Shown here: one piece after another, positions 6,401 to 25,160 of the stretch | Position numbering within the stretch: position 1 is the first letter of the stretch | Layout of the letters: every line of letters starts with the position of its first letter | Origin: a virus | DNA length: 25,637 bases | IMG/VR virus record: IMGVR_UViG_3300043313_002109 | Coordinates: 1-25,637 of that record | Direction: 5' to 3' (one strand) | Made by a program: the position numbers and the translations under genes | Notes under the pieces: model-generated | The model's database searches: none | Seen by the model: only the letters and a program-made list of their open reading frames with translations | What the model was told of the DNA's origin: nothing

Positions 6401-6543
6401 CGCAGGGCGCCGGTACCGCCTGGAAGCAGGAGGTCGACACTGAGGTTGCCGAAGGCGGCCAGTTGGGTCAACAACTGATAGCCTCCAACGGTATGGTCAT
6501 CATGCCCACCTCTGGCCAGGGCCTGCTTCGGAGGGTCTGCTAA
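3484..6543 (+). CDS. Tail fibre/spike with Asp-box repeat and inserted domain
   Basis: A 1019-residue protein, the largest in the window, starting at GTG 3484 (GTGA overlap). The flanking parts (about 1-546 and 761-1019) read like a beta-propeller of the sialidase/BNR type: repeated strand units and an Asp-box-like SVNYGQTW at residues 860-867 (consensus S-x-D-x-G-x-T-W, with Asn for Asp), followed by a second strand set (TLWVTFENGGVWKLP). Between them lies a distinct 214-residue beta-rich domain (about 547-760: DVILRAVGAQAEVNG to GFEIALRP), like jelly-roll modules seen in other phage fibres. No catalytic residues of a lyase or sialidase can be named. The likely role is receptor or glycan binding at the tail tip. 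It overlaps the next gene by one base. Confidence 0.75.
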   Translation: MRSCAPARYGRPTRYTGGKMAPRRVWLPSTIEATGRTMSCTWSDRRQGWVIGVDVAMPSVWSRSQHIFTNYGAGGAWSGSDLDTAYKKSPWAAEYDVDAHWMSGSNGNGGIYRRLAADVAWTNQTVTYYGQVDEGGSSNPRSAGSRLGVRVGVRTFLSCTKAAGRGIAKADTLGGSWADWAFGTSRQYTAIVASPTWGTALYASSDGTIAATDGVWIMTGLSSGTATVTQLDTVGTGAPTLADVRDVFAVTRAGVDYIYATVGTTTDRGVWECKITHDPADGGFVAATHVTWRRVFTCDDTANDRPQSCCAYYYSDTDKIYLWLGLYSGNVDGTGTWTEYNGPVNNYKRTHYRCADALAVSPTWTTISNATNVSVQTDGIEGINHPHMITIIGESSVEKGRIGGSNHSCQSINVNPAGTEVCTVGKSTPWICRNPRDTTPLWRPYSYGLGALAGGYQGVIVNESSQGWFAFTDDDRGGWLCEHGTPAVLRWCLANDNSGIPTTSNATFAMARHYLGVDNVNGGLLFAARDLKGYRVRYPFSPPAAQDVILRAVGAQAEVNGTSVAVSIPGTALVGDLLILHGTTRNATGAFPAISGWVAGGSRTQGSNQRSAWWYRYMQEGDTSVTLVAANTGTLVGTVASWGGVDGAVPQDVAEFDEAAGTATTYQLSTPLSTITNRTVVVNLVATSDDNELSMTTANGFTAGYQGASYSSAVGTKAAQAMAYKLVTPAGASGSAPVWTQITNAVPNDGWVGFEIALRPTGSGPSQLAILTKNYASPHALALSLSDMIGFYSYPDSGANLRYLGVPKGSGIVRSDAGGGTVSSGDTLVQAFTSIANRTEFHVNGTNLFLHVPDLGIYRSVNYGQTWDLLWNKTIADPQHRWSGHMVGVAGTNTLWVTFENGGVWKLPNAHTATAGSGTAGSVPTAAAKVTGGSLPAGTERCGAIAVDVGNGDLWVLQQPSAGATIAKIHRLPQGAGTAWKQEVDTEVAEGGQLGQQLIASNGMVIMPTSGQGLLRRVC

Positions 6544-7181
6544 TGTCTGGGCCGTGTCTGGCGGATACCTCCTCCATCATCATGAGCCGGGACGTGTCCG
6601 GCAACATCAAGGGCGATGTGCGGCTGCACGCAGGCGACTCCGGGCTCGGGATCGCTGGTGACGGCCTATACGTCAACCAGAACGCCAACGACGGGCTCGT
6701 GCGCACCGCCTACGGCATGACGGTCCGGATGAAGGACGATCATGTTGGCTGGTCGCCCGGGGTTGCTGATTTTTCCACCCCCGGCACCGCAGTCGGCCCA
6801 GGCGGCTACGTGCAGGTGGGCAGCGGGCTGTCACTCAACCTGTCCATCATGGGTACGCCACAGGTGGTGGCCCAAACGATCCACCTGTCCTACGGTGCGG
6901 TGGTCGACGTGGCCGACTCCGACGCCTCGACCGTCAACTTCTTCCATGGTTGGAGCATCATCCTCGAGCGATCGTTCAACTTCGGCGGCTGGGTGGAGGT
7001 CAACAAGGCCAGCCACTCGGGTGCCTACGCCGAGATGGACAACCTGTTTGGCCAAGAGTGGGTATTTCTCGGTGGCGGGGTCTTCAACATGCAACTGCGG
7101 ATCACGATGCGGGGCGGCCTGGCCGGTACCTCGATCGCCCGCTCGGTGCAGCAGTACTACATGCACGCTGCGTACCGCTGA
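6543..7181 (+). CDS. Minor tail/fibre-associated protein
   Basis: A 212-residue protein; ATG 6543 shares its A with the TAA of the fibre gene. The start (DVSGNIKGDVRLHAGDSGLG, then IAGDGLYVNQ) is the sort of beta-repeat found in phage tail fibre shafts, and the rest is beta-rich with many G, V and aromatic residues and ends in QQYYMHAAYR. It has no cysteine clusters, no signal peptide and no membrane segment. As the last structural gene of the operon, directly behind the large fibre, it is probably a second fibre, a tip protein or a fibre partner. The 17-base gap to the next gene is the first break in an otherwise overlapping operon. Confidence 0.6.
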   Translation: MSGPCLADTSSIIMSRDVSGNIKGDVRLHAGDSGLGIAGDGLYVNQNANDGLVRTAYGMTVRMKDDHVGWSPGVADFSTPGTAVGPGGYVQVGSGLSLNLSIMGTPQVVAQTIHLSYGAVVDVADSDASTVNFFHGWSIILERSFNFGGWVEVNKASHSGAYAEMDNLFGQEWVFLGGGVFNMQLRITMRGGLAGTSIARSVQQYYMHAAYR

Positions 7182-7198
7182 CCTAGAAGGGCCTATGT

Positions 7199-7390
7199 GT
7201 GAAGCGCCTGAGCAGGGCCACCACTCTGGTAATAGTGGCTTGCGTGTGGGGTACCTGGGAGATCGGGTGGCTGGGCGCTCGACCGCAAGTGCTAAGTCTG
7301 GTGCTGACGGTGTTCCTTGCCCCGGCGGCGCTGGAGTTGGATGCGCAGCGGCGCAAGGGTTCGAAGCCTCCGAAGGATGACGTCTCGTGA
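7199..7390 (+). CDS. Small two-helix membrane protein (holin candidate)
   Basis: A 63-residue protein from GTG 7199, with AGAAGG (7185-7190) about eight bases upstream. Two hydrophobic stretches, about residues 8-26 (TTLVIVACVWGTWEIGWLG) and 30-46 (VLSLVLTVFLAPAALEL), are joined by a short turn, and the tail is charged (DAQRRKGSKPPKDD). Small size, two membrane spans, a basic C-terminus and a position just after the tail genes fit a class II holin or another lysis-cassette protein. No endolysin is next to it, so the role is inferred only from shape and position. It overlaps the next 31-codon ORF as GTGA. Confidence 0.6.
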   Translation: MKRLSRATTLVIVACVWGTWEIGWLGARPQVLSLVLTVFLAPAALELDAQRRKGSKPPKDDVS

Positions 7391-7482
7391 TACGATTCGC
7401 TCACCATCACCTCGCTATCTCGGTCTTGTTTCTGTCCGGGATCAGCGCATCCCTCCTGTTCTGTCTGTTGCGGGGGGTGTAA
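7387..7482 (+). CDS. 31-residue single-span membrane miniprotein
   Basis: GTG 7387 overlaps the previous TGA and the ORF ends at TAA 7480-7482, directly against the next ATG at 7483. It encodes a short polar start (MIRFAHHH) and then one hydrophobic helix (LAISVLFLSGISASLLFCLL) with an RGV end. Overlap on one side and abutment on the other, between two membrane-protein genes, argue for a real coupled gene; it would be missed by a usual length cut-off. It may help or regulate the holin-like neighbours. Confidence 0.45.
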   Translation: MIRFAHHHLAISVLFLSGISASLLFCLLRGV

Positions 7483-7881
7483 ATGCCCAAGCGTATTGCC
7501 CGGTGGGGCAACCACCATCCGTTCATCACCGTGCTCATAGCGATCGGCATCTTCTCGTCGCTGCTGGCCTGGTCACAGTATGAGCAGTCGCAACGGCTGG
7601 CTGATGCGTCGGCCCACGAGGCGGCGGCTCGGGTCGTCGATCTGGCGAGCGAAGCCAAGGCTCGAGCGGAGCAGATAGCAGCGTCACAACTGGACGTGTG
7701 TGAGCGGGCGGTGCGGGCCGTCACCGCTGCCAGCAAGGTCGATGACCTCAAACTGATCCAATACCTACGTGATCGTGCTATAGAACTCGGGCGTCCGCCC
7801 GGTCGTGCGCTCGACGATCTCGAGCGTATCGTCAACAGCAGGGAAGCGCCTCTGGCGGCCTGCGTACCGAAAGGCCCATAA
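7483..7881 (+). CDS. Membrane-anchored coiled-coil protein
   Basis: A 132-residue protein starting at ATG 7483. After a short basic start (MPKRIARWGNHH) comes one membrane helix (about residues 13-31, PFITVLIAIGIFSSLLAW) and then a long charged, alanine-rich helix (about 33-95) with coiled-coil character, ending near a Pro/Gly segment. Two cysteines are present at residue 74 and near the C-terminus. The N-terminal anchor plus helical ectodomain is the layout of an inner-membrane spanin, or of an actinophage lysis accessory protein, but actinobacterial hosts may lack a classical outer membrane, so I do not call it a spanin. It abuts the following membrane gene with no gap. Confidence 0.6.
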   Translation: MPKRIARWGNHHPFITVLIAIGIFSSLLAWSQYEQSQRLADASAHEAAARVVDLASEAKARAEQIAASQLDVCERAVRAVTAASKVDDLKLIQYLRDRAIELGRPPGRALDDLERIVNSREAPLAACVPKGP

Positions 7882-8214
7882 ATGGAAAACCTTGCCCTAT
7901 TCGCCATCGTCGGCGTCCTCGGCTCCAAACTGCTCGACGTCGTGCGATACGCCCGGGGTCAGGATTGGAACGCCGTCGTCACCCAGGCGGCTGCCTGGGC
8001 GGTCGGCGTGGCTCTCACCTTCGTAGCGTCGGCTGCCGATACGTTCGGCACCCTGGTAGTGCCCGGCATCAACGTCCCGCTCAACGACCTGGACGGCTGG
8101 TCCAAGGTGCTGGTCGGTACGGCGATCCTGTCGCTGCTGTCCAAGGTGGTCGACCTGCAGAAGACGTTCGACAACACCCAGTCGGCGGCCGTTCCGAACC
8201 TCACCAACAAGTAA
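7882..8214 (+). CDS. Holin-like membrane protein
   Basis: A 110-residue protein from ATG 7882, directly after the TAA of the previous gene. It has an N-terminal hydrophobic segment (ALFAIVGVLGSKLLDVV), a polar turn with DWNAVVTQ, a second span (about residues 36-52, AAAWAVGVALTFVASAA), then a third weaker hydrophobic stretch (VLVGTAILSLLSKVV) and a polar tail. The opening and the DWNAVVTQ turn are like membrane proteins I know from actinophage lysis regions, usually called holins. Size, spans and neighbours fit a holin; the matching endolysin is not in the window. Confidence 0.65.
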   Translation: MENLALFAIVGVLGSKLLDVVRYARGQDWNAVVTQAAAWAVGVALTFVASAADTFGTLVVPGINVPLNDLDGWSKVLVGTAILSLLSKVVDLQKTFDNTQSAAVPNLTNK

Positions 8215-8217
8215 CCG

Positions 8218-8496
8218 GTGGCCCTCACCGCCCACGGACACCAGCAGATGTGCCGGATGGTGCGTCTGCTGGCCGTCGTTGCCCTCTCCGTGACCTTCCT
8301 TTGCACGTGGGGGCCGGGATGGCTACTCGCACCCGGGTCGGCCCTCGTGGTCGCTCTCGTGGAAACGGGGCTGCGGGAGCGCCGCCCTGTGCGGCTGGTC
8401 CATCGACCCGGTGTGGTGAACCGGGACGAGGAAGGGGAAGCGGGTCGGCCTGCGCATGGGCTGACCCGCCCTCTTACCGGCATCAACCTCCGCTAG
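8218..8496 (+). CDS. Small membrane protein at end of the plus-strand operon
   Basis: A 92-residue ORF from GTG 8218, three bases after the holin-like gene. Residues about 14-30 (MVRLLAVVALSVTFLCTW) and 35-50 (LLAPGSALVVALVETGL) are hydrophobic, followed by an Arg-rich, charged tail. It is the last plus-strand gene before the strand switch, and its 3' end overlaps the 3' end of the convergent minus-strand gene by 14 bases. I see no good ribosome binding site, so the start is uncertain; coding is supported mainly by the tight spacing. Confidence 0.5.
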   Translation: MALTAHGHQQMCRMVRLLAVVALSVTFLCTWGPGWLLAPGSALVVALVETGLRERRPVRLVHRPGVVNRDEEGEAGRPAHGLTRPLTGINLR

Positions 8497-9346
8497 AGCC
8501 GAACCCGGCGTCGCCTCTGTCCGACCGGTCGAGCACCTCGACCCGGACGGTGGCGATCCCGGGCGACAGCAGCGGCATGGGGATCAACTGGGCGAGCCGC
8601 TCCCCGGCCTTGGCCCAGGCGCCCTCCGGGCCCGGGTTGAACACACAGGCGAACAGGTCGCCCCGGTAGCCCTGGTCGATCACGGCGGAGTTGACAATCA
8701 GACCCCGTTTGAAGAAGGTCGACGAGCGGCCGACGATCATGCCCCACACGTCTTCGGGCAACTCGACCGCCACCCCGGCGGCTACATTGGTAAACGTACC
8801 GCCCTCGAGCCAGGTGTCGTCGGCCACGTATAGGTCGAACCCGGCGTCGCCCTCGTAGGTGCGGGTCGGCAACTGCCCCGGCCCGGCGACCTTCATCACC
8901 CGTACGAACGGCTCGATCTCGCCGTGGATGCCAAAGAAATCCTGGCGGGCCTCGAGCAGCAACCGCCCGGGCACGGCTCTCAACGCCACCTCGGCCTCTT
9001 CCGGCGTGTTGACAATGTGGGCGCCCGACCCGACCAGCGCCCACGACGCCCTCGTCTCGTCGGACACGATCACAATCGCCGGGATGCCCTGAGCGATCGC
9101 CTGGGCGATCTCCATCGGGACCCCGACCGAGTTGGTGTGCGGATAGTAGGCGACCAGAGCGTCGGCCAGCAGTAGCGCCTGCTGGTTCACCTGCTGCACC
9201 CGCTCGTCGGGCTGGCCGTTCACCTGCCAAGCAACCCCGGGCTCGTACACCGTGTGGCGGCGACCCAAGATGCGGGCGGTGCGGGTGGTGACCGACAGGT
9301 CGACCGCCGCATGGTCAAGCGGGTAGGCAAAGTAGATAGTAGCCAT
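8483..9346 (-). CDS. Nucleoside deoxyribosyltransferase-like/dUTPase fusion
   Basis: A 287-residue protein from ATG 9346 (AAGGAG eight bases upstream). Residues 1-135 look like a nucleoside 2-deoxyribosyltransferase: a MATIYFAYPL start and ADALVAYYPHTNSVGVPMEI, where Glu79 is in the place of the family's catalytic Glu, followed by GIPAIVI. Residues 140-287 are a complete trimeric-type dUTPase with all five motifs: DAGFDLYV (167-174), GRSST (206-210), AVIDQGYRGD (221-230, catalytic Asp near 224), GERLAQLI (248-255) and the C-terminal RGDAGFGSSGG. The dUTPase half removes dUTP and supplies dUMP; the first half could exchange or hydrolyse deoxynucleosides. It ends the PolA-PurZ cassette, so it likely shapes the nucleotide pool for an altered genome. 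The fusion itself is what I see; its combined function is inferred. Confidence 0.85.
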   Translation of the reverse strand: MATIYFAYPLDHAAVDLSVTTRTARILGRRHTVYEPGVAWQVNGQPDERVQQVNQQALLLADALVAYYPHTNSVGVPMEIAQAIAQGIPAIVIVSDETRASWALVGSGAHIVNTPEEAEVALRAVPGRLLLEARQDFFGIHGEIEPFVRVMKVAGPGQLPTRTYEGDAGFDLYVADDTWLEGGTFTNVAAGVAVELPEDVWGMIVGRSSTFFKRGLIVNSAVIDQGYRGDLFACVFNPGPEGAWAKAGERLAQLIPMPLLSPGIATVRVEVLDRSDRGDAGFGSSGG

Positions 9347-9358
9347 GGGGGAGGCTCC

Positions 9359-9589
9359 TTATTGGTGTAGAGCAGCAGATCGCCGCTCGTCGGGCGTTAC
9401 CTCGTGGGTGATCAGGTGGCCGTCGCCCAGGATGAGGTACTGTATGCGGCCGGTCTGGTCGGCCTGGTTCTGTGCGTTGCGTTGTACGTCGGTCCAGGCG
9501 ACCGGGTTGCGGCAGAACCAGACTTGGCCGCCCTTCTCGATGACGGTACCAGGGTACAACCAGGGGTTTTCGTGTGCCTCTATGGCCAT
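9359..9589 (-). CDS. Small unknown protein in the PurZ cassette
   Basis: A 76-residue protein from ATG 9589, with AGGAGG four to five bases upstream; it overlaps the end of the MazZ-like gene by ten bases. It has a compact alpha/beta look (NPWLYPGTVIEKGGQVWFC, then GRIQYLILGDGHLITHEVT), one Cys and no membrane segment. I do not recognise a family. Because it lies between the MazZ-like gene and the deoxyribosyltransferase-dUTPase in one operon, a nucleotide-metabolism or accessory role is possible. Confidence 0.7.
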   Translation of the reverse strand: MAIEAHENPWLYPGTVIEKGGQVWFCRNPVAWTDVQRNAQNQADQTGRIQYLILGDGHLITHEVTPDERRSAALHQ

Positions 9590-9981
9590 TGGCCCTCCTG
9601 CATGACGTAGCGGGCCATGCGGCCGTAGATGGATAGGTCGAGCCAGTCGTCGACGTTGGGCAGGCGACCGGATTTGAGCGCCGACAGCGCCCGGGCGATC
9701 TTACCTTCGGCGTAGAACAGGATGCCGACCAGGATATAGAACTCCTTCTCGCTCGAGCCGACCGGCACATCAACCTCGATGAATCCGGCCATGGTGCGGC
9801 CCAGCAACTCGAGGTCGTAGGCGCCCCGCTCGGCGGCTTTGGCGGCCACCATTTCGGCTACGTGTTGGCCTTCGCCGGAGAACCAGGCGTGGACCCGGGC
9901 GGCAGGGTCCATCCCGTCGCTGACCCCCCGCAGGAGAGCGCTGCTGTATTCGCTGCTGGGCACTTCCCGGCTGGTGGGCAT
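9580..9981 (-). CDS. MazG/MazZ-like nucleotide pyrophosphohydrolase candidate
   Basis: A 133-residue protein from ATG 9981, which overlaps the TGA of purZ by one base. The protein is nearly all helical. Features of the all-alpha NTP pyrophosphatases are visible: an acidic/helical segment (HVAEMVAAKAAERGAYDLEL, about 40-59), SEKEFYILVGILFYAEGKIA (about 78-97) and DDWLDLSIYGRMA (111-123), which resembles the metal-binding and DLxxY segments of the MazG/DUF1599 group. In Z-genome phages MazZ turns dGTP or GTP into the monophosphate that PurZ uses, and mazZ is often next to purZ. I infer this role from context plus fold-like motifs; the classical EExxE motif is not clearly present. Confidence 0.6.
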   Translation of the reverse strand: MPTSREVPSSEYSSALLRGVSDGMDPAARVHAWFSGEGQHVAEMVAAKAAERGAYDLELLGRTMAGFIEVDVPVGSSEKEFYILVGILFYAEGKIARALSALKSGRLPNVDDWLDLSIYGRMARYVMQEGQWP

Positions 9982-11027
9982 CAGGGCATCACCCACGTGC
10001 GGGGGCCGGTGGTCACGATCGACGGGACCGGCAGGTCGTACTTTTCGAGCCAGCGGGTCGCAGCCTCCGCCACCAGCAGGTCCGGCCCGTTGGGCTTGTA
10101 CACCAGCGGCATCTGCACCTCGTAGGTCGACGGGTCGATGTAGTCCCAAAAGGTGAGGCAGAGGTTGCAGGTTCCGGTGCTGGTGCCGTTGGCCGCCAAC
10201 GCCCGGTGGACCAGCGCCGGGTCGAAGTACGCTACCCGGCGAATCTTTTTGGTTACCGTCGTGCGCTCCGGCTTGATGTGGCCACCCGATTCGGCGTTCA
10301 GGTGCTCCCAGGTTGTCTCGTTCTCGAGGTGACCAGACGGGCCAGCCACCCGGATCGGGAAGGTGCGGGCCACTACGTAGGTGTTGATCGCATTGTCGAG
10401 CCCGACGTCGGCCATCGCCATGAAGTCGATCGCCCGACAGTCGCTAGATGTGCAGTGCGGGTAGTACCCGGCGTGCAACCCCAGGCCGTAGCCCTGGGTG
10501 CCTTCGAGCATCACCTCTTTGCCGTCGCCGTTCAGGTCGATGAATCCGACCGACCCGGGCAGCACCTGTTGGATCGCCATCTGTCCGGCGGTCGGGCATT
10601 GGCGCATGATCCGCTCGGCCCGGCAGGCGCCGACCCCTTTGCCGGTCGAGCCCATCGTCTCGTGCATCTGCAGCGCCCCCTCCCGGTACTTGTGCTCCGG
10701 GGTGAGGATGCTGGCCTGCGGCGAGATCACCAGGCGTCCGCTCACGCTGTGTCCGGCCTCGTCGAGCGCCACGACCTCTTCCCGCAGCACCTCGATGTCG
10801 ATCTCCGAGCCGGGACCCAGATAGATGGCGGCGGCGTGGTCCCAGATGGCGGCCACCGGCACCTGCCGTAGCGCCCACTTGCGCCCCTCCGAGTCGTAGC
10901 CGGTGTGCCCGGCGTTTGGTCCCGCCACCCTCACCAGGTAGTCGTACCGCTTCATCTGCGCCAAGGCGCACGCTACCGCACCCTTGGCTTCGGACCCGAA
11001 CTGTGCGCCTACGATGACATCAATCAT
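9981..11027 (-). CDS. purZ: PurZ, 2-aminoadenylosuccinate synthetase
   Basis: A 348-residue homologue of adenylosuccinate synthetase (PurA, about 430 residues); the shorter length is usual for PurZ. It starts at ATG 11027. The N-terminal nucleotide loop reads GAQFGSEAKG (7-16): the PurA motif GDEGKG has Ser12 in place of the catalytic Asp, the known PurZ hallmark. Other PurA landmarks are kept: AGPNAGHTGY (35-44), GSTGKGVGA (126-134), LEGTQGYGLGLHAG (174-187), YYPHCTSSD (188-196) and PERTTVTKKIRR (253-264). PurZ joins dGMP and aspartate to make the precursor of 2-aminoadenine deoxynucleotide. It lies 32 bases after a PolA polymerase and overlaps the MazZ candidate. A plain PurA is unlikely given the Ser substitution. 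Confidence 0.92.
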   Translation of the reverse strand: MIDVIVGAQFGSEAKGAVACALAQMKRYDYLVRVAGPNAGHTGYDSEGRKWALRQVPVAAIWDHAAAIYLGPGSEIDIEVLREEVVALDEAGHSVSGRLVISPQASILTPEHKYREGALQMHETMGSTGKGVGACRAERIMRQCPTAGQMAIQQVLPGSVGFIDLNGDGKEVMLEGTQGYGLGLHAGYYPHCTSSDCRAIDFMAMADVGLDNAINTYVVARTFPIRVAGPSGHLENETTWEHLNAESGGHIKPERTTVTKKIRRVAYFDPALVHRALAANGTSTGTCNLCLTFWDYIDPSTYEVQMPLVYKPNGPDLLVAEAATRWLEKYDLPVPSIVTTGPRTWVMP

Positions 11028-11059
11028 CGGGCTACCCTAGCAGCGCACTTTCACCGGAG

Positions 11060-12940
11060 TCAATGCCATACCTTGCCGTCGACCAGGAAAGGTGCGTCGA
11101 TCTGCGACTCGAACGCCTTCTGCATGATCGCCTTGTATGCCCGCACAATGTCTCGGCCCTCGTCGTCGTAGGGCACCTCGAGCAGCAGCGAGTCGTGGAT
11201 CTGCAGCAACTGATAGCCCGGCATCTGCGCCTCGGCCTCGATCTGCGCCATCGCCATGCACTGTGACACCGACCCCTGAATCTTGGCGTTGAACGCCTTG
11301 TGGGTCGGCTCCCCGAAGCGGAAATAGCGTCGCCGCCCGCCCGCCATCGTCACGTAGCCATACTGGTCGGCCTGCCAGTGAGCCAGCCGGGCGCCCTTGT
11401 CTAACTCCGGCATGGCGGCCTTGAAGTCGACCATCCACTCGTGCACCTCGGCCGGGTCCGGGTCGATCCCGACGAACAGCACGATCTGCTCCCGGATGAC
11501 CCCCTCCCCGGCGCCGTAGATCAGCCCGAAGTTCAACCGCTTGGAGATGTTGCGCAGCCGTTTCCAACTAGGCGAAGACTCGTCGATCTTGAACGTGGTG
11601 CGGCAGGTGATCGAGTGGGCGTCGTCTCCCCGCTCGAAGCCCTCAAGCATGGCGACACACTTGGTCATCCCGGCGGCCGTACGCATCTCCGCCTGGTTCA
11701 TATCCAACTCGACCAGGATAAATCCAGGCTTGGGGACGATGAACGACCGCACGGTCGGCAGGTCGGGCGGCAACTGGTAGTCGTGGGGGATGGCCTGGAC
11801 CTGCACCCGCTCGACCGCCACCCGGCCCGACACCGTACCCCGGTTGCGGTTCTGTCGCTCGTCCTGCGATTTGGTCTGCCAATACGACGTACGCAGGCGA
11901 CCATCCCGGCCCACCAGGTGGTACCAGTTGCCGTACCACATCGCCTCAGCCGTTTCGAGTTGCGTCAGCGTCTGGTACTCTCGGGCGCCCCGCACCCCCT
12001 CCTCCACCAACTGCCGCACCACATCCTTGGACACCGATGCCGCACCGTCTGGCGTCTCTTTGATCGGCGCTCGACGGCCGGTGCCGAACCAGTAGTGTCG
12101 CATCGACGCCTCAGTGAACAGCGACAGCCCTGTCTCCCGACCCAAATCGATCTTGGCGGCGTTGATACGGGTAAGTAGCGTGGCGTGCGCCTGGGCGGCG
12201 GCCTCGACGTCATAGCCGATGCCTCGCACCTCCATGCGGTACAGCACTTGGGCGAAATCTACCTCCCGCTCAGCCAACTTCGGGTCTAGTACCTTCTCGA
12301 CGTACAGCAACTCTCGCTGCAACTCGTACAGTCGCAGGGTGAGCACCGGGTCGTGCCGGGCGTAAGGCTCCATGATCTGCCACGGCGCCAGGTCGTAGCG
12401 GGGGTCTTTCTTGCCGCAGTACAGCCGCAGCCAGGTTTTCATCTCGATCTCGGCTGCAGTCTCCTGCGACCCCCACAGCCGGGTAGCGATCGGCTTCAAG
12501 CCGTTGGGCTCGTTGGGCCACAGCAGCGGGGCGACCACCATGGTGTCCCAGTGGTATGCCCGGCCCAACGGCATGGCCGTCTCGGACTCGAGCCCTCGCA
12601 GCCCGGTGCGCAGGATGTGCTGGTCATACTTGGAGTTGTGGTAGATCAGCGCCTGTCGCTTCAACCAGTCGCCTAGCGCCCGCCACTCGTCCACCCCCAG
12701 GTTGGTGGCTTCGACGTCGAACAGCGACGGCCCGGGGTAGCGGCGGGGGGTGTTGGTCTTGCGGCCCAGCCAGGTGTCGAGCCCTTGGTCGAAGGCGTAT
12801 ACCCGGGATTGGATTTCGTCGTGTTGCCGCCAGGCGCACGATACGACCGCCACCCGGGCCCCGTCGTCGACGAACAGCCCGCTGGCTTCGGTATCTAGCG
12901 CTACTGGCCAGTCGACGGCATCGGCTGGTAGATCAATCAT
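11060..12940 (-). CDS. PolA-family DNA polymerase with proofreading domain (DpoZ-like)
   Basis: A 626-residue family A polymerase from ATG 12940. The 3'-5' exonuclease is complete: ALDTEASG (Asp16, Glu18), IYHNSKYD (99-106) and YARHDPV (193-199). The polymerase has motif A VELDMNQAEMR (410-420, Asp413), motif B RNISKRLNFGLIYGAG (463-478; Lys467, Phe471, Tyr475) and motif C QIHDSLLLEVP (580-590, Asp583). There is no 5'-3' exonuclease domain. Motif C has HDS rather than the common HDE. It replicates the phage genome. Because it is followed by purZ, it is best read as the DpoZ-type polymerase that co-occurs with PurZ in Z-genome phages, where it favours aminoadenine over adenine; that preference is inferred, not visible. 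Confidence 0.92.
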   Translation of the reverse strand: MIDLPADAVDWPVALDTEASGLFVDDGARVAVVSCAWRQHDEIQSRVYAFDQGLDTWLGRKTNTPRRYPGPSLFDVEATNLGVDEWRALGDWLKRQALIYHNSKYDQHILRTGLRGLESETAMPLGRAYHWDTMVVAPLLWPNEPNGLKPIATRLWGSQETAAEIEMKTWLRLYCGKKDPRYDLAPWQIMEPYARHDPVLTLRLYELQRELLYVEKVLDPKLAEREVDFAQVLYRMEVRGIGYDVEAAAQAHATLLTRINAAKIDLGRETGLSLFTEASMRHYWFGTGRRAPIKETPDGAASVSKDVVRQLVEEGVRGAREYQTLTQLETAEAMWYGNWYHLVGRDGRLRTSYWQTKSQDERQNRNRGTVSGRVAVERVQVQAIPHDYQLPPDLPTVRSFIVPKPGFILVELDMNQAEMRTAAGMTKCVAMLEGFERGDDAHSITCRTTFKIDESSPSWKRLRNISKRLNFGLIYGAGEGVIREQIVLFVGIDPDPAEVHEWMVDFKAAMPELDKGARLAHWQADQYGYVTMAGGRRRYFRFGEPTHKAFNAKIQGSVSQCMAMAQIEAEAQMPGYQLLQIHDSLLLEVPYDDEGRDIVRAYKAIMQKAFESQIDAPFLVDGKVWH

Positions 12941-13036: not shown

Positions 13037-13765
13037 CTAGGCCCGGGCGGTCTTGCGGGTGGCGAGCACAAGCAGCACGCCGACAGCGACAGCGACCAGC
13101 GACCACTGCCACGCTTCTGGTCCTCCGTTGCCCGTCGGGGGCAGGGTGGCACTCGGACCCGTCTTGGGCGCCAGCGTGGAACCGGAGGTCACGGAGACAC
13201 CAGGGGCGGGCACCGGAGTGGAGGTGGCGGGCGTCGTCGGGACGGTTCCGGGCGTCGTTGTGGTCGTGGTGTCCTGCGGGACCGCCACGCAGATGTACGG
13301 ACCGGCGACCCGGCCTCGCTCGTCTCCGTTGGCGATGAACACCGCTTTGACGTCCACCTGCCCGCAGGCGGTGGTGAAGCGCACCACGATCGGGCCGACC
13401 GATCCGGCCGGGAACGTTACGGTCACGTCCCGGTCGGGGGGCACCGGCAGGCCGTCACCGGACAGGCCGACGTGGGCGACCACCCGGACCTGGAAGTCCT
13501 GCGGCACCGACTTGTCGACTGTGAACGAAGCGCTCGATGCTTCGAATCCGCCGGTGAAGTGCATCACCGCAGTGACGGTCCGAGTCAGCGGTCCGAAGGT
13601 GAACTGTCGGCTGGAGGTGCAGTCGAACGGGGTGTAGTGGACGGTCTGGTTGCCGCCGCAGTTGCCCACGATCGGAGCGGCGTTGGCGCCGCCGATGAAC
13701 CAAGGCAGGGCCAAGGCTCCGAAGATGGCGCCGACGATCACGGCGCAGCGGATAAGGTGCTTCAT
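13037..13765 (-). CDS. LPXTG-type cell-wall-anchored surface protein
   Basis: A 242-residue secreted protein from ATG 13765, overlapping the lipoprotein gene as ATGA. It has a signal peptide (MKHLIRCAVIVGAIFGALAL, cleavage likely near ANA, about residue 29), an ectodomain of about 130 residues with several cysteines (GNCGG, FDCTSS, TACGQ, YICVAV), a Thr/Pro-rich stalk (about 163-205) and a full sorting signal: LPPTG (208-212), a hydrophobic helix and a basic end (RKTARA). Host sortase would cleave after the Thr and attach the protein to peptidoglycan. A phage gene for a wall-anchored protein, beside a lipoprotein and transcribed with early genes, suggests surface masking or superinfection exclusion; that role is inference. 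Confidence 0.8.
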   Translation of the reverse strand: MKHLIRCAVIVGAIFGALALPWFIGGANAAPIVGNCGGNQTVHYTPFDCTSSRQFTFGPLTRTVTAVMHFTGGFEASSASFTVDKSVPQDFQVRVVAHVGLSGDGLPVPPDRDVTVTFPAGSVGPIVVRFTTACGQVDVKAVFIANGDERGRVAGPYICVAVPQDTTTTTTPGTVPTTPATSTPVPAPGVSVTSGSTLAPKTGPSATLPPTGNGGPEAWQWSLVAVAVGVLLVLATRKTARA

Positions 13766-14172
13766 CGGGTACCTCCGGTGTAGGGGGCGGGTGCCCAGTA
13801 GTCGCTTGCGATGAACGTCATGCCGGAGTCACCGGCGACGAACGAGCCTCGGCGGGCGATGACCGGACCGTACAGCGCCCGGCCCGGCTTCTGCGCCATG
13901 TTGCCACGCACGCAGTCGTCGGCGTAGTTGTTGCCGCCCATCAGCGGAGCGCAGTCCTCGTCGACCACGATGCGGCGCTGGTTGGGGGCGGCCGGGCAGG
14001 CGGCCTGATCGGTGGTGAGCACGATCAGCACGTGATCGTTGATCGTCTGGCCGCAGTGCGGCGGCGCCAGCGACACGACCGGAGGCGGAGGCGGGGGAGG
14101 CGGATCGGGGAGGCAGGCGGTTGCTCCTGCAACGGCCAGGGCGCATGCGGCCAGGGTGGGGAGGATCTTCAT
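13762..14172 (-). CDS. Putative lipoprotein with polyproline segment
   Basis: A 136-residue protein from ATG 14172 (GGAAAG in the leader). The N-terminus is a short signal peptide ending in a lipobox-like AGATAC (Cys20), so export and lipid attachment are likely; Ala rather than Leu at the -3 position makes it a weaker lipobox. A run of prolines follows (about residues 24-31), then a folded part of about 100 residues with four cysteines (PPHCGQ, AACPAA, DEDCAPL, DDCVRG), suggesting disulphides outside the cell. It has its own promoter (14214-14243) and is coupled by ATGA to the LPXTG protein, so the two probably act together on the host surface. No known family is recognised. Confidence 0.75.
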   Translation of the reverse strand: MKILPTLAACALAVAGATACLPDPPPPPPPPVVSLAPPHCGQTINDHVLIVLTTDQAACPAAPNQRRIVVDEDCAPLMGGNNYADDCVRGNMAQKPGRALYGPVIARRGSFVAGDSGMTFIASDYWAPAPYTGGTR

Positions 14173-14318: not shown

Positions 14319-14882
14319 TCAGAAGGGCTCTTCCGCAGGCGGCGGCTTGCGGCGACCTCCCTTGGGCTTGGACGCCTCCGGCTCGGGCTCGTCGTCGCCG
14401 CCGAAGTCTTCGGGGGCGGCCGACCGGCCTCCGCCAGCGGCGGCGTGGTTGTCGTGCTCATCCGGGTCGTACTCGTCGCATTCGGACGCCGGGAAAAACG
14501 CCAGGGCGTTGTTGACGAACTTGCCCTTGTTCTTGCCGACCTCCTGTACCACCTTCTCGACCGTGACCCCGACGTACCAACCCAGGATGAGAGCGGTGTC
14601 GGTGTCGGCCGGAACCTCGAAGGCGGCCATGATCTGGCCGATCTTGCCCAGCGAGTTCGGGCTGAGGCTGGTGTTCTCCCAGACCCGGGTCTTGTCGCCC
14701 GGATGCTCGAAGACCCACCGCCAGTAGTGGTACCCGGACTTGCCCGGATTGTCGGACGAGGTGCACTCGATCAACTGGAACACGTAGTCGCCGTCTTCCA
14801 GCACCGAGAACTCGGGCAGTTCGTCCGGGTCCCAAGCGTTCTTCTCGGCCTGTTCGGCCACGTTCTTAGCGAGTTGCGGCAT
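14319..14882 (-). CDS. Putative single-stranded DNA-binding protein
   Basis: A 187-residue protein from ATG 14882, with a perfect AGGAGG six bases upstream; it overlaps the end of the Sak4-like gene by 17 bases. The first 130 residues have the beta-rich look of an OB-fold-type protein (SVLEDGDYVFQLIECTSSDN, YHYWRWVFEH, WYVGVTVEKVV), resembling DUF669-like phage proteins found next to Sak4 annealing/ATPase genes. The rest is a disordered acidic and Gly/Pro tail (ECDEYDPDEHD, GGDDEPEPEA) ending PPPAEEPF, like the acidic tip of SSBs that binds replication partners. The function is inferred from this tail and from the coupling with the ATPase. Confidence 0.7.
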   Translation of the reverse strand: MPQLAKNVAEQAEKNAWDPDELPEFSVLEDGDYVFQLIECTSSDNPGKSGYHYWRWVFEHPGDKTRVWENTSLSPNSLGKIGQIMAAFEVPADTDTALILGWYVGVTVEKVVQEVGKNKGKFVNNALAFFPASECDEYDPDEHDNHAAAGGGRSAAPEDFGGDDEPEPEASKPKGGRRKPPPAEEPF

Positions 14883-15831
14883 CGGTATCCTCCTGATCGC
14901 CGTCTTGGATGGACTTCACTTCCGCCTTGGTGTGTTCAGCGAGTGCCAGTCGGCGGGTTCTGGCCTCGATCTGCAGCGGGTCGGCCTTGGCGACCAACTC
15001 GCCCCTCACGTAGGCGAGCAGCCGGGGGAAGGTCGGGTTGACCATCCGGACCGGGAGCACGCCGAACGTGTCCTTGGCGTCGAACGGCCCTTGCGGGCGG
15101 CACAGCGCCGTGTACTCGTCGTCGCCTTCCTTCTCGGAAAACGACTCGTACCGCATGTGCAGGATGAAGTCGACTGCTCCCTGCAGGTCACGCAGCACGG
15201 CGGGGGTGACGCCTGCGGCGACCCTCAGCGCCTTGTTCTCATCCTGGTCCCGGCGGGGCAGGGCGGTGATGGCGAGATGGACCGGCAGGTCACGCAGCCG
15301 GTGCAAGATGCGCCGGAACTGCTCGGTCATATCGCCGTAGTCTTCCTGGTACAGCCGCACCGGGTTGCGCTGCTCGCCCTTGAAGGCGGCCCGCTCGACC
15401 GATTCGTCGACCAGGGATTCCAGCATCCCTCGGGTCTGCTCGGTGGCAGAGTCCCAGGCGACACCGTAGATCTGCTCGCCGTCGCTGATCCGGTCCTTGA
15501 TCTCGTTGGTCAACTCGAGCAGCGACGCATAGTCGCAGTCGGTCACCACTTCGATGTTGGACACGAAGTCGGGGTCGAGCCCGATCTTGGTGGCGACCCG
15601 TCGCAGCGGGGTGGCCTTCAACCGGTGCTCGGAGTCGATGTAGATGACCCGGCCGTTTACCGCCATCGAGGCGGCGCAGGTGGTCTTCATCAGCCCAGGA
15701 TCGCCGTAGTACAACACTCGGATGTACTCTTCGGCGGTGTCGAGGGTGGGCCGACCGGGGGTGGATGGTCGAATCGTCTGCACCGTCGCCGGGTTAGGCG
15801 AGGTACGACGACCCGGGGTCCGGGTTGCCAT
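14866..15831 (-). CDS. Sak4-like RecA-fold ATPase (recombination)
   Basis: A 321-residue protein from ATG 15831. A short disordered, basic N-terminus (1-30) is followed by a RecA-like ATPase: Walker A GDPGLMKT (43-50), IYIDSEHR (63-70) and a Walker B-like IYGVAWDS (121-128). The compact single-domain layout and the downstream SSB-like gene fit the Sak4 group of phage single-strand annealing/recombination ATPases, which work with SSB to pair DNA strands. It is the first gene of a short two-gene unit. The start has only a weak GAGAGA ribosome site. I am confident of the ATPase and moderately so of Sak4. Confidence 0.82.
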   Translation of the reverse strand: MATRTPGRRTSPNPATVQTIRPSTPGRPTLDTAEEYIRVLYYGDPGLMKTTCAASMAVNGRVIYIDSEHRLKATPLRRVATKIGLDPDFVSNIEVVTDCDYASLLELTNEIKDRISDGEQIYGVAWDSATEQTRGMLESLVDESVERAAFKGEQRNPVRLYQEDYGDMTEQFRRILHRLRDLPVHLAITALPRRDQDENKALRVAAGVTPAVLRDLQGAVDFILHMRYESFSEKEGDDEYTALCRPQGPFDAKDTFGVLPVRMVNPTFPRLLAYVRGELVAKADPLQIEARTRRLALAEHTKAEVKSIQDGDQEDTDAATR

Positions 15832-15922: not shown

Positions 15923-16894
15923 CTATGCGAACTCGTCCAACCCTTCGAGGCGGGGCTTGTGCCATTCGGGTATCTCGTGGTCGGTATGGCGCAGGAACTT
16001 CGCCAGGTCGTGGCCCTTGCGGTTGGCGAGGCAGGCGTCGGTGTAGTCGCAGAACCGGCGGCACGTCTCCTCGTTGGGGGATCGGGGCGGCTGGTACTCG
16101 ATGTCGTGGGCGTACATCTGCCAGGCGGTGGCGATGGCGTCGTTGGCGATCTCTGACAACTCGACCTCCGACTGGTAGATCGGGATGCGCTTGAACCGCT
16201 CGGGCAGCGGCTGCGGCTTGGTCTTGTTCTTGCGGGCCAGGGCGTAGTTCCATATCGAGCCGAACACCGGCTCGGGGTACAGGCCGTGCAGCGCCATGAT
16301 CCAGTTATATAGTCCGGATTGGTCGTTGAACGCCAGATCTTTGCGACCCATGGCGGAGGTGGATTTGGCGTCGACAATCCAAATACGGCCCCGGCTGCCT
16401 CGACCCCGCTCCCGCACCAGCAGGTCGATGTACACCTTTAGCCAGATGGACAGGATACGGTCGGGCAGGTCGATCGTGGTTAGCAGCGCCTCCTTCCGGT
16501 ACTGCGTCTCGAGGATCTCCCACTTCGGGTCGGCGCCGTACGTCTCGATATAGCCGGAATACATCCAGCGCACCAGGTCCCGTAGTTCCCGTTCAGATGT
16601 GAGCAGATCCGGGTCGTCTTGGCACAGCGCCTCGATCTTGCGGGCGAACATCTTGTAGGCGGTGTGCTCGAGCCGGTCGGCAGGCCGGGCGCCTTCAACC
16701 TGGGCGGCCCGCAGTCCCTGGTAGTGGGTGTTCATCACGTCGTCCCACAGGTGACCCCGCTGGAATACCGGCTTCTCGACCTTGGGGGTCCAGCGTTGGC
16801 GGTACTGCAGCCAATGCTGGAATTGACAACGGCGCCAGGAGGATAGTTCAGAGAACGACACGGTGAGCCGGTCGACGGGCTTGTCTACGCCCAT
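15923..16894 (-). CDS. RecB/Cas4-like PD-(D/E)XK nuclease with Fe-S cysteines
   Basis: A 323-residue protein. I chose ATG 16894, which overlaps the previous gene by ten bases; longer in-frame starts add a Pro/Arg-rich stretch that is only antisense-like. It has the RecB nuclease core: FSELSSWRRCQFQHWLQY at the start (14-31, Cys23), GHLWDD (47-52), YIDLLV (155-160, Asp157) and IVDAKSTS (173-180, Asp175, Lys177). Near the C-terminus are Cys278-x3-Cys282-x5-Cys288. One N-terminal and three C-terminal cysteines is the 4Fe-4S arrangement of AddB/Cas4-type nucleases. It likely trims DNA ends or gives 3' single strands for the Sak4-SSB system encoded next. Confidence 0.85.
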   Translation of the reverse strand: MGVDKPVDRLTVSFSELSSWRRCQFQHWLQYRQRWTPKVEKPVFQRGHLWDDVMNTHYQGLRAAQVEGARPADRLEHTAYKMFARKIEALCQDDPDLLTSERELRDLVRWMYSGYIETYGADPKWEILETQYRKEALLTTIDLPDRILSIWLKVYIDLLVRERGRGSRGRIWIVDAKSTSAMGRKDLAFNDQSGLYNWIMALHGLYPEPVFGSIWNYALARKNKTKPQPLPERFKRIPIYQSEVELSEIANDAIATAWQMYAHDIEYQPPRSPNEETCRRFCDYTDACLANRKGHDLAKFLRHTDHEIPEWHKPRLEGLDEFA

Positions 16895-17199
16895 GGGTCC
16901 CACTCCGCTGCTCGTGCCCGCAGGGCCTTGACCAGGGGTTGGCGCTCGAGCCAGGCTACCGGGTCCTGCATCATGGCGTCGGTCAGCGCCTCCCACTCCT
17001 GCTCAGCGTAGTACTGCGCCATATCACCGTTGAAGTTGGGCGGCGGTAGCAGCAGCACGGCCCGGAACGCCAGCGATTCGGCCTGACGCAGCAGCAGGCG
17101 GTAGGCGTTTTCGGCGTGGCGTGGGGTCATATCCGATATCCGCACCCGGGTGCCGTCTCGCACCTCCCACATCTCGGTTTCGTCGAGGGTGATGCTCAT
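16885..17199 (-). CDS. Conserved actinophage-type hypothetical protein
   Basis: A 104-residue protein from ATG 17199, overlapping the WhiB-like gene's stop as ATGA. The start (MWEVRDGTRVRISDMTPRHA, about 10-29) is the 'dGxxixixdMxxxHxxN' style opening seen in small proteins of many actinobacterial phages; the rest is helical with Trp-rich ends. I know no function. It overlaps the RecB-like gene downstream, so all are likely translated from one mRNA. Confidence 0.7.
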   Translation of the reverse strand: MSITLDETEMWEVRDGTRVRISDMTPRHAENAYRLLLRQAESLAFRAVLLLPPPNFNGDMAQYYAEQEWEALTDAMMQDPVAWLERQPLVKALRARAAEWDPWA

Positions 17200-17543
17200 G
17201 ACGCCACCTCAAAGGTGCGCCGCACCTTGACGTACTGCTTGCGTTCCCGCTCCGTCATGCCACCCCACACTCCTATCTCACGTGGATGCTCCAATGCGTA
17301 CTCGAGGCAGGTCATCTGCACCTGGCAGTCGTGTTCGCAAATGTGCTTGGCCCGGCGCCGGTTGGTGACGTCGTGCTCGGACTGGCCTTCGCCGTGCCAC
17401 CAGCGGGGATCGTATCCCGGGTTGAGGCACTCGCCCTTCGACATCCAGGCGGGTTTCATCTGGCGCAGCAGGTCGAACACCGAGATCGGGTTGCCGTCGC
17501 AGCCCACCCCGTACTCCTGCCCGCCGTATTCGGAGCGGGTCAC
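17196..17543 (-). CDS. WhiB-like Fe-S transcription regulator
   Basis: A 115-residue protein from ATG 17543, overlapping the previous gene as ATGA. It has the WhiB signature: four cysteines (Cys39, Cys69, Cys73, Cys79), the EYALEHP helix and GVWGGMTERER (91-101), the G-V-W-G-G turn that binds sigma factor region 4, then a basic end (KQYVKVRRT) for DNA contact. WhiB proteins carry a 4Fe-4S cluster and control transcription in Actinobacteria, and phages encode them to influence host or phage promoters. One oddity is the Cys69-x3-Cys73 spacing, since the usual central pair is C-x2-C. It is the best single marker of an actinobacterial host in this window. Confidence 0.9.
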   Translation of the reverse strand: MTRSEYGGQEYGVGCDGNPISVFDLLRQMKPAWMSKGECLNPGYDPRWWHGEGQSEHDVTNRRRAKHICEHDCQVQMTCLEYALEHPREIGVWGGMTERERKQYVKVRRTFEVAS

Positions 17544-21714: not shown

Positions 21715-21758
21715 CCGGCCCTTCACATCTGACCGGACATCGTCCGATACCGAGTGTC

Positions 21759-22010: not shown

Positions 22011-22016
22011 ATCGAC

Positions 22017-22025
22017 AGTCTACCA
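22017..22025 (-). promoter_or_regulatory. Extended -10 of the HTH gene, leaderless
   Basis: On the minus strand TGG-TAGACT (22017-22025) ends six bases before ATG 22010, the same distance as in two other leaderless genes. The nearest -35-like box, TTGACG (22044-22049), is 21 bases away, too far for a standard spacer, so this promoter may rely on its extended -10 or an activator. Confidence 0.55.
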
Positions 22026-22071
22026 GGCCGAAGCCAGCCGCCACGTCAAGTGGTGCCCCCTCGACACTCAA

Positions 22072-22198: not shown

Positions 22199-24955
22199 CT
22201 ACCCCCACTCGTCGCTTTCCTCCGGGTCGTACAGATCACCTTCCGGGCGGGGTGGCAGGACCGGCAACCGGGCCTCCGCCGGGAACACGAAGTCGATGTC
22301 GTGGCAGATGCGGATGGCGTCGGCTGTGGTGGCCCTCCATACTCGCTGACCGACCCGCTGTGTGACGTTCTTAGGCGGGCGCCACCCCCGTTCGGTCAAC
22401 TCCTTGGCCCAGTTGGACTTGGACACCACCCGGTGTCCAGCCGACTGGTTGGTCCGTTGGTTCACCGCCCAGCGCTCGAGCCCGGGCAGATAGACGTATA
22501 CCACCGGCCGGTGATCCTGGTCCAGCATCACCTTCACCGGGTAGTTCTGTAGATGCTCGGTGGCGGTGCCATCCTTGGCGTTCTTCGGTAATACGAACGC
22601 CTGCTGATAGGAATCGAGTCCCGCCAGAAACTCGCAGATCACCCGCATCACATTCGAGGATCGGCGCATGATGCGCCCCGCCTCGTCATGCTGGATGCGT
22701 TCTTCTGTGCCCTTGGCCAACGCCTCGATCAGGTTGATCTCCGGATGGATCGGTTCCAGGTAGCCCGCCGTGTACCACGCCTTGGCCTCGGCGGCGGGCA
22801 TTCCCCTCGCCAGGTAGGTGGCCAGGCGGGCGCCGAACTGCAGCACGCCCTCTTTCAACGCCAACCGATCCGACTGGTCGGTCAGGCTCCCCAAAGCCTT
22901 CACGTGGTCGTACAGCCACTGAGCCGGGTCTGAGTGCCCACCCACCGCCTCGAGTGCAGCGGAAACCAAAGGACCGGCCAACGACGCCCCTCCGTCGAAC
23001 CTGCGGTCCCACACTTCGATGTCGTCCCACTGGGCACGCTTCGGGTCGATCAGCGAGCGCCGGTCTTTCACCATCCCCGGCAACTCGACGTGCACCACCC
23101 GTTCCTCGAGCGCACGCTCGCCCTCGAGCGAGCCCAGCGTCTCGCCCGTCAGCAAAGGGATCTGCAGCAGCGGGAACTCATTCATGCCACGGCTGGCGCC
23201 CGATATTGCCTGCGTCATCGTCCGCTCGTCGGTCACCTGACGCAGTACTTCTGCCAGGTTACCCGGGTCTTCGATGTCGTCGATCCATAGCCAGCCCGTC
23301 CTCGACTCGCCCATCATCCGCTTCGCCCCGGCGGCAGTGATCCGGCCGGTGCCGCCCTGCATACCCGATGCAGCAACCAGACGGCCCACCGCTGAGTTGG
23401 ACTTGCCCGACCCAGCCTGGCCCGTCACCGCCAGGAACGGGAAGAACGCCCTGCCCACCAGCAGTGGCTTCAACGGTAACATGCAGGTCAATGCAGCGAG
23501 CGGCGCCATTGCCTCCGGGAAGTGAAAGGTCAGCAGGTCACGCCATCCCTGCAGCGCCTCGGTACGGTCGATCTTGATGTCGTAGTTGGTACGCCTCGAG
23601 CGGGACATAAGCGGGATGGTGGGCTGGCCATGCTCGTCGTGCATCGGGATCACCCGGCCCTGCGGGTCGAGGGTGGTCTGCTCCGACACGAATAGATATG
23701 GGTGAGGCGACTCGTAGTCGAACCGGCGCAGCAGATCGGCGGCCGACCACAAGCCGGGCGGTATCTTCACCCAGTCGGTCGGGTAGGTGCTCTGCAGTAC
23801 CGCCTGCAGCCGGTGCCTGGCGTCCATCTTGGACTCCCGGGCAGGGACCCCCGGCGATAGCAGGGCGAGATTCTCCGCTGACAGCGAATGCTCAAGATCC
23901 CGGTTGGATTTGAACCTCCACGCTGGCACGACGGCCCGTCTCGTTCGTGTCTCGAGCCCCACCTTCACGTTGGCTGTGATGTACCACTGGTTCTCGTTCT
24001 CCACCGGGTCCCGCACAGATTGGGCGTCGGTGATCACCCAGGGCAGCCAGGTGCGATCCTCGTAGGTACGCTCATCCTTCGAACCGACCGCCACCTCGAC
24101 CGTCGTGACCAGGCGCTCCGGGTCGACACGCACCCCCAACTCTGCGAACACATCGGTGCGCTTGCGGTCCTCATAGGCCCACGCCCTCTCGAACCGGTCC
24201 ACCACATCGGCGGTGGGTATGTCAACCAGGGCCGCCGCTGCCCGGTCCACCTCGCTGCGGGCGTAGTCGTAGCGTGGCCAAGCCCGGTTGGCGAAACGGC
24301 CCAACGTGGAGATCAGCACCGCATCCCGGGTGCCCTCCACCGGCGGGCTGGCGATTAGAGCATCCAGCGTGGGAAGACCCGACTTGGACTTCAAAATAGG
24401 CTTGGCCGACGTGCCCTTGGATGGCGCCAGTAGCGCCTTCACCTCCGGCAGGTTCGACGGGAACATGGGCAGCAGGTCAGGTGTAGCAGGCAGTGGACGC
24501 TTCCACTCGTACACCGTGCCATCCCGGTGGCGGGTCGGCGGGACCAGGATCACCCCGAACGCCCGCACATCGAACCCCTTGTCGCCCCGCAGGAAGTCCT
24601 GCACCGGGAAGTCGGATGGGCGGCGGAACCACAGGTGGATACCCCGCTGGGTGCGAGGTTTCTTCGGGTTCGGGCCCCCCGACAGGGCGCAGGCGGCCTG
24701 CATCGCCAGGTCCTTCGGCAGAGCAGCCCGCCACGCCTCGATCCCGGCGTCCGAATCGAGATCGAGCACCAGGAGGTTGGAGCGGGCCATGATCGCTGCA
24801 GCCTGCTTCACGTTCGGATGGGCATCCCACTCCTGCAGACACTGCTCGGCGCTGTGTGGGTGCTGCCAGTCGTCCATCAGCGGATGCTGCTTGGCGGCGG
24901 GTAGAACCTCTAGCCCCCACCCGATCAGGTGGGCGGCGTCGGATCTTATCGTCAT
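22199..24955 (-). CDS. Primase-polymerase/helicase (PrimPol-helicase)
   Basis: A 918-residue replication protein. I chose ATG 24955, seven bases after a GAGG site; a GTG at 24988 would add 11 residues. The N-terminal part (about 1-165) is an archaeo-eukaryotic primase/PrimPol: VLDLDSDAG (63-71, metal-binding Asp65 and Asp67), RGIHLWFR (104-111, His107), then FDVRAFGVILVPPTRHRDG (128-146). A long middle follows. The C-terminal half is an ATPase: Walker A GQAGSGKS (512-519) and Walker B WLWIDDIED (near 555-563, Asp559/Asp560). It should prime and unwind DNA at the replication fork, supplying the PolA polymerase. It is the first minus-strand gene and may be an initiator for the adjacent intergenic region. 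Confidence 0.9.
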   Translation of the reverse strand: MTIRSDAAHLIGWGLEVLPAAKQHPLMDDWQHPHSAEQCLQEWDAHPNVKQAAAIMARSNLLVLDLDSDAGIEAWRAALPKDLAMQAACALSGGPNPKKPRTQRGIHLWFRRPSDFPVQDFLRGDKGFDVRAFGVILVPPTRHRDGTVYEWKRPLPATPDLLPMFPSNLPEVKALLAPSKGTSAKPILKSKSGLPTLDALIASPPVEGTRDAVLISTLGRFANRAWPRYDYARSEVDRAAAALVDIPTADVVDRFERAWAYEDRKRTDVFAELGVRVDPERLVTTVEVAVGSKDERTYEDRTWLPWVITDAQSVRDPVENENQWYITANVKVGLETRTRRAVVPAWRFKSNRDLEHSLSAENLALLSPGVPARESKMDARHRLQAVLQSTYPTDWVKIPPGLWSAADLLRRFDYESPHPYLFVSEQTTLDPQGRVIPMHDEHGQPTIPLMSRSRRTNYDIKIDRTEALQGWRDLLTFHFPEAMAPLAALTCMLPLKPLLVGRAFFPFLAVTGQAGSGKSNSAVGRLVAASGMQGGTGRITAAGAKRMMGESRTGWLWIDDIEDPGNLAEVLRQVTDERTMTQAISGASRGMNEFPLLQIPLLTGETLGSLEGERALEERVVHVELPGMVKDRRSLIDPKRAQWDDIEVWDRRFDGGASLAGPLVSAALEAVGGHSDPAQWLYDHVKALGSLTDQSDRLALKEGVLQFGARLATYLARGMPAAEAKAWYTAGYLEPIHPEINLIEALAKGTEERIQHDEAGRIMRRSSNVMRVICEFLAGLDSYQQAFVLPKNAKDGTATEHLQNYPVKVMLDQDHRPVVYVYLPGLERWAVNQRTNQSAGHRVVSKSNWAKELTERGWRPPKNVTQRVGQRVWRATTADAIRICHDIDFVFPAEARLPVLPPRPEGDLYDPEESDEWG

Positions 24956-25160
24956 TGTTTTCCTCGATTCTGCGTGGACGAGGTACACACAACAGGGCTG
25001 GTGTTGTGGGCGCCTCGTGGCTGGATGGTGGTAGCCACGGCATTGGCCTGCAGCCAGACTAGCAGGTGGCGCTGTGGCGCTCGCATCGGCTCGGACCCGT
25101 TGTGTGGGGCGGTGGTGGTTGTGACGGCTCGAGCGCCCAGCCCCCGGTCGGGGGTACTAA

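Follow-up and report, generated by a model that had tools for sequence, protein, structure and literature searches.

A probable PurZ0-type 2-aminoadenine DNA cassette, with an unnamed helical protein family, in a viral genome fragment

The DNA analyzed here (the window) is the whole of the IMG/VR record IMGVR_UViG_3300043313_002109, a linear viral fragment of 25,637 bases. Five consecutive minus-strand open reading frames (ORFs) at 8483-12940 very probably constitute a PurZ0-type cassette for a Z genome, i.e., for DNA carrying 2-aminoadenine (Z). They encode a PolA-family polymerase, a PurA homologue, an all-helical protein, a 76-residue protein, and a two-domain protein (Table 1), and it is from these genes that we infer the activities encoded in the window, the part played by the helical protein, and the presence of Z in the virion DNA. 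All the ORFs are intact, and their GC content at third codon positions (GC3; 0.85-0.88) fits real genes. The polymerase gene is separated from the PurA homologue by 32 bases (11028-11059), and the latter overlaps the helical gene by one base, at 9981, through the sequence TGATG. An earlier note on this DNA had described the run of the first three genes with the same gap and overlap, and its coordinates were confirmed; it missed the 76-residue ORF (9359-9589) and the two-domain protein (8483-9346), both inside its own interval. The gene order (polymerase, purZ, gene X, small ORF, and a fusion of nucleoside deoxyribosyltransferase-like [NDT-like] and dUTPase domains) matches that of the phages Wayne, PinkFriday, HunterDalle, and Joann. 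The assignment of the cassette, as a new member, to the PurZ0 family already known from Wayne and Ghobes (described in 2026) is well supported. A DNA search of the window against phages gave no match, nor did a scan of IMG/VR using a single PurZ protein, so that the latter route revealed no close relatives of the genome. With the window, the PurZ0 Z-phages gain a deeply branching lineage and a broader definition.

The synthetase carries GSEAKG at residues 11-16 in place of the GDEGKG of PurA, as the earlier note had reported, with Ser12 replacing the catalytic Asp13. It passes NF038379 (310.9 bits; cut-off, 300), an NCBI PurZ model that makes no distinction between PurZ and PurZ0, while PurA models score it far below their own cut-offs. 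Its best match among solved structures is 7vf6 (E 3e-69), the PurZ0 of the Gordonia phage Archimedes (PMC12884076). Of the 13 PurZ0 rows in the alignment, 12 have GSEAKG, including that of the window, and one, Parvaparticeps, has GSEGKG; the motif is GSTGKG in all four PurZ rows and GDEGKG in Escherichia coli PurA. In a maximum-likelihood tree of 44 rows, the synthetase fell inside the PurZ0 clade (bootstrap/Shimodaira-Hasegawa-like approximate likelihood ratio test [SH-aLRT], 100/99) and the PurZ rows, those of phiVC8 and S-2L among them, formed a separate clade (100/100); these bootstrap values are rough, the run being not quite settled. On sequence grounds, the window synthetase is PurZ0 rather than the type of PurZ found alongside datZ and mazZ. 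The genomes encoding PurZ0 carry dutZ and usually dmtZ (PMC12884076), and the window has both, fused.

The earlier note, which had proposed such a tree, had read the cassette as purZ, mazZ, and a DpoZ polymerase. The Z cassette itself stands, given the PurZ model and the gene order of Wayne, whereas the tree sets the synthetase apart from PurZ and the third gene belongs to an unnamed family rather than to MazZ. It is very unlikely that the window holds the classical PurZ, MazZ, and DpoZ cassette, with a DatZ gene that simply falls outside the fragment. The contig is indeed incomplete, so that little can be concluded from a gene not being on it, and the model that the synthetase passes lumps PurZ and PurZ0. 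Yet both tree and motif place this protein in PurZ0, the helical protein has no match among the MazZ models, and none of the PurZ0 loci screened had a DatZ or MazZ match.

The Asp-to-Ser change and a length near 350 residues had been taken in the earlier note as the mark of PurZ, which did not hold. Searched with GSE-type patterns, cellular genomes yielded 80 loci, 76 of them with GSE[A/G]KG, 2 with GGEGKG, and 2 without a motif reading; since the patterns contained GSE, this fraction is biased by construction and shows only that such proteins exist. All but one of these loci (79 of 80) lacked a helical or DmtZ match alongside. Because cellular GSEGKG homologues occur without a Z cassette, the Asp-to-Ser change alone is not proof of PurZ and should not serve to call it. 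The same homologues could suggest that the window synthetase belongs with them in the cellular GSE family, or that it is a conventional PurA-like enzyme and uses inosine monophosphate. This is hardly credible given the low PurA scores and the tree, where the cellular homologues fell outside the phage clades, that of PurZ0 included. The exception, locus L128 (7794-10157), itself has PurZ0, helical, DmtZ, and Dut matches and lies on a contig assigned to a Verrucomicrobia metagenome-assembled genome (MAG), which may reflect a wider host range or a misbinned phage. In five other cellular loci (L130, L139, L140, L155, and L176; about 5900-10800), the GSEGKG homologue lies in a recurrent operon with an RNase_H_2 protein carrying a kinase-like domain and a protein of 355-400 residues. 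The latter is dCTP deaminase/dUTPase-like in L140 and L155, and a deoxynucleoside-kinase-like protein is also present in these two operons and probably in that of L176. PADLOC gave no clear match for this operon, which is possibly an uncharacterized nucleotide-modification or defence operon.

The two-domain protein (287 residues) joins an NDT-like and a dUTPase domain and is a DmtZ-DutZ fusion. It aligned over 99% with the fusions of Arthrobacter phages, at 36-37% identity. Its residues Y5, D11, P36, N54, E79, and W102 correspond to Y6, D12, P57, N77, E103, and W124 of the Ghobes DmtZ, and the six were invariant in nine aligned sequences, including the unusual Asn that replaces an Asp. Mutations of Y6, D12, P57, N77, and E103 affected the activity of the Ghobes enzyme (PMC12884076). 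In Wayne and Ghobes, DutZ is a hydrolase of dATP and dGTP; DmtZ acts on dAMP, which it hydrolyses and whose deoxyribose-phosphate it can transfer to Z (PMC12884076). The 76-residue ORF showed no visible counterpart, by eye only, among the small genes found at the same place in relatives.

The third protein had been called MazG-like and helical in the earlier note. Two structure models of the family (predicted local distance difference test, 90.4 and 90.1) are helical bundles, in agreement with the second term; the first found no support in profiles. The protein had no credible match in Pfam, PHROGs, NCBIfam, or PDB sequences (its best PDB sequence matches were designed helical repeats) and no significant match to models of MazG, MazZ (DUF550), or DUF5664; PF18909 (DUF5664) matched five of 16 proteins, the window helical protein not among them. 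Comparisons by hhalign of the family with alignments of MazZ, DUF5664, and DatZ, which hold two to four sequences, gave probabilities of 0.2% or less (0.2% for MazZ, with two sequences, and 0.15% for DUF5664). A regular expression for the MazG motif was discarded, since it missed known MazZ proteins, and a 5.7-bit score of phiVC8 p22, in a region aligning with the C-terminal motif of the helical family, was too weak to use.

The association of this family with purZ0 is nevertheless tight. A profile built from nine members and applied to the 80 best-scoring IMG/VR PurZ0 loci found the helical gene downstream of purZ0 in every one of them, a figure that holds for that sample. A tblastn search with the Archimedes copy retrieved 31 of 50,697 phage records (18 from Microbacterium, 6 from Gordonia, 5 from Streptomyces, and 1 each from Micrococcus and Curtobacterium). 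The purZ search also tallied 18, 6, and 5 records in the first three genera, and purZ is also present in the single records from Micrococcus and Curtobacterium, making the genus composition that of the non-Arthrobacter actinobacteriophages with purZ, compared as tallies and not by individual record. Among 50 clusters of PurZ0 (70% identity), 49 had the helical gene and 1, from Arthrobacter phages, had DUF5664; none had both or neither.

The position after purZ is held by mazZ in S-2L and by DUF5664 in Wayne, whose conversion of deoxynucleoside triphosphates (dNTPs) to monophosphates (dNMPs) was shown (PMC12884076). Since the helical gene sits at this same position, its product most likely fills the same dNTP-to-dNMP slot. 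The models are compatible with a distant all-alpha pyrophosphohydrolase, though they do not prove it: a second look at the lists of structural matches placed iMazG, DCTPP1, PRA-PH, and DR2231 at Z scores of 3.7-5.1 (4.0-5.1 for iMazG and DCTPP1), tied with unrelated helical proteins, and weak signals of DUF6378 came from Pfam (E 0.048 in 2 of 54 family members) and BFVD (probability 0.77). We see roughly even chances that this family takes part in Z-DNA synthesis as a hitherto undescribed component tied to purZ0. It would then be another means, alongside MazZ and DUF5664, of making dGMP and removing dATP, one that almost every PurZ0 phage not of the Arthrobacter lineage possesses and that the remaining phage genomes searched lack. 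PMC12884076 does not cite the accession of Ghobes gp51, and no characterization of the family was found in the literature covered, to which the original PurZ0 paper did not belong. The helical protein, small and expressible, is a candidate for the dNTP hydrolase that is still missing in most PurZ0 phages, and the isolates Ghobes, Archimedes, Galactica, and Goodman carry copies.

The polymerase carries the exonuclease motif I (DTE) and the polymerase motifs A, B, and C (including HD), confirming the PolA-family enzyme with proofreading of the earlier note. The phage polymerases nearest to it are those of PurZ0 phages, with which it grouped in a tree (DpoZ-1 clade, SH-aLRT 100). The clade also includes the polymerase of the Streptomyces phage Marky (locus L208, 9612-11959). 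Marky has a replication module like that of PurZ0 phages and a gene annotated as MazG-like just before the polymerase; purZ was not seen in the 20 kb read, and the Streptomyces records of the purZ search are all accounted for by other phages. This may represent a loss of purZ or a state that preceded its acquisition.

Several observations weigh against the reading of a Z-genome cassette or against the role given to the helical protein. The polymerase scores under the DpoZ cut-offs (263 bits against 350 for NF038381, DpoZ_2). A Tyr-to-Phe change in helix O is reported to be the only mutation common to both DpoZ clades (PMC8599892), and this Phe is absent from the window, where the steric gate reads FGLIYG, with Tyr (FSLIFG in Wayne, LGMIFN in phiVC8, Phe also in Ghobes); the DpoZ label of the earlier note is therefore backed by the clade and not by the residue said to mark it. 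Three residues conserved in the helical family are changed in the window copy (R for Tyr52, Y in 98%; V at 41, E in 80%; L at 84, E in 93%), which keeps K48, K94, R97, D111, D115, and Y119. Neither model of the family had a significant PDB fold match, which does not show a new fold, and the complementarity of the helical and DUF5664 genes amounts to a single event, since just one lineage has DUF5664 in place of the helical gene. Z in the virion is predicted from the genes of a fragment.

The Tyr gate, the low DpoZ score, and the altered helical copy, together with a polymerase of the same clade in Marky, where no purZ was seen, would fit a cassette that is present but yields mixed DNA or no Z-DNA, for instance through a Tyr-gate polymerase without a preference for dZTP or through a degenerate component. 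We consider this unlikely, because the ORFs are all intact with coding-like GC3 and the DmtZ residues are complete. Moreover, Tyr is common among the polymerases of IMG/VR PurZ0 contigs and present in the Streptomyces phages Galactica and Hiyaa, which makes the Tyr gate a lineage variation. Either the Phe mark is not general or Tyr-gate polymerases differ in selectivity, and a Tyr-gate enzyme inside the DpoZ-1 clade makes the proposed marker testable.

In the Z-genome cassette that we favour, PurZ0 would join dGMP and aspartate into N6-succino-2-amino-dAMP, which a host lyase and kinases would carry on to dZTP. The DutZ half would convert dATP to dAMP and some dGTP to dGMP, and the DmtZ half would remove dAMP as adenine or move its deoxyribose-phosphate onto free Z base to give dZMP. 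The helical protein would most likely supply an extra dNTP-to-dNMP step, like DUF5664 in Wayne and MazZ in S-2L, and the DpoZ-1-type polymerase would write Z opposite T. Diaminopurine in the virion, and the resistance to restriction proposed in the earlier note, would follow from such a pathway.

The closest known system is that of the Arthrobacter phage Wayne (PMC12884076), which has the same order of polymerase, purZ0, gene X, small ORF, and DmtZ/DutZ fusion, with 36% identity for the fusion (over 99% of its length), 43% for PurZ0, and polymerases of one clade. In the window, unlike in Wayne, the helical gene replaces DUF5664, the polymerase gate is Tyr rather than Phe, and no HNH gene lies between the polymerase and purZ0. 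The Gordonia phages Ghobes and Archimedes share PurZ0, DmtZ, DutZ, and a helical gene directly after purZ0, but their DmtZ and DutZ are encoded by separate genes and their polymerase gene lies several kilobases away, whereas in the window the former are fused and the latter is adjacent. The Z-clusters of S-2L, phiVC8, and SH-Ab 15497 have the same pathway logic and an Asp-to-Ser synthetase, but belong to the other PurZ clade (GSTGKG), with DpoZ-2 or none; where the window has DmtZ-DutZ and the helical protein, they have DatZ (HD) and MazZ. MazG/all-alpha NTP pyrophosphohydrolases and DUF6378 are helical like the window protein, with weak signals and no significant match in sequence or fold.

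Table 1. Features of the window, in order of position (aa, amino acids; minus sign, minus strand)
Feature	Coordinates	Strand	Basis or remarks
DutZ (dUTPase fold), C-terminal half of fusion	8483..8899	-	PF00692, 4.4e-24
DmtZ-like (NDT superfamily), N-terminal half of fusion	8957..9346	-	PF05014, E 0.0019, below gathering score; alignment, residues
76-aa ORF	9359..9589	-	overlaps helical gene by about 10 bases; GGAGG site
All-helical protein, unnamed family linked to purZ0	9580..9981	-	133 aa; putative dNTP pyrophosphohydrolase slot
PurZ0, succino-amino-deoxyadenylate synthase homologue	9981..11027	-	348 aa; NF038379, 7vf6, tree
PolA-family DNA polymerase with 3'-5' exonuclease motifs, DpoZ-1 (Wayne-like) clade	11060..12940	-	626 aa; motifs, tree
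242-aa protein	13037-13765	-	signal-like N terminus, Thr/Pro-rich linker, LPPTG, hydrophobic stretch, RKTARA tail
136-aa protein	13762-14172	-	lipobox-like N terminus AGATAC; overlaps 242-aa gene by four bases
AAA/Sak4-RecA-like recombinase, same replication module	14866..15831	-	PF13479, phrog_124
PD-(D/E)XK (Cas4-like) exonuclease, same replication module	15923..16996	-	PF12705, phrog_1218
WhiB-family regulator	17196..17543	-	PF02467, 62.6 bits vs cut-off 23.6
RusA-like resolvase domain, C-terminal half of 264-aa ORF	21277-22071	-	domain match
Prim-Pol family primase/polymerase	22199..24988	-	PF09250, 3.2e-16

The host is probably actinobacterial, as supported by the WhiB gene and by the primase, whose matches were confined to actinobacteriophages (137 records, with the same tallies per host genus as the PurZ0 phages, plus one Streptomyces record). 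This agrees with the actinobacteriophage proposed in the earlier note, as does the gene order shared with Wayne, although the contig of the Verrucomicrobia-labelled MAG with the same cassette makes certainty about the host unwarranted. Directly upstream of the polymerase, the 242-residue protein, which had no match in phages or Pfam, looks sortase-anchored judging from its sequence features, and the next protein is possibly a surface lipoprotein. Two nearby minus-strand genes (17945-18436, with weak matches to PHROGs of unknown function, and 18934-19665) share the motif C-x-CGCGE-x-V-x(2)-RFKPGHDARLK and may be paralogues.

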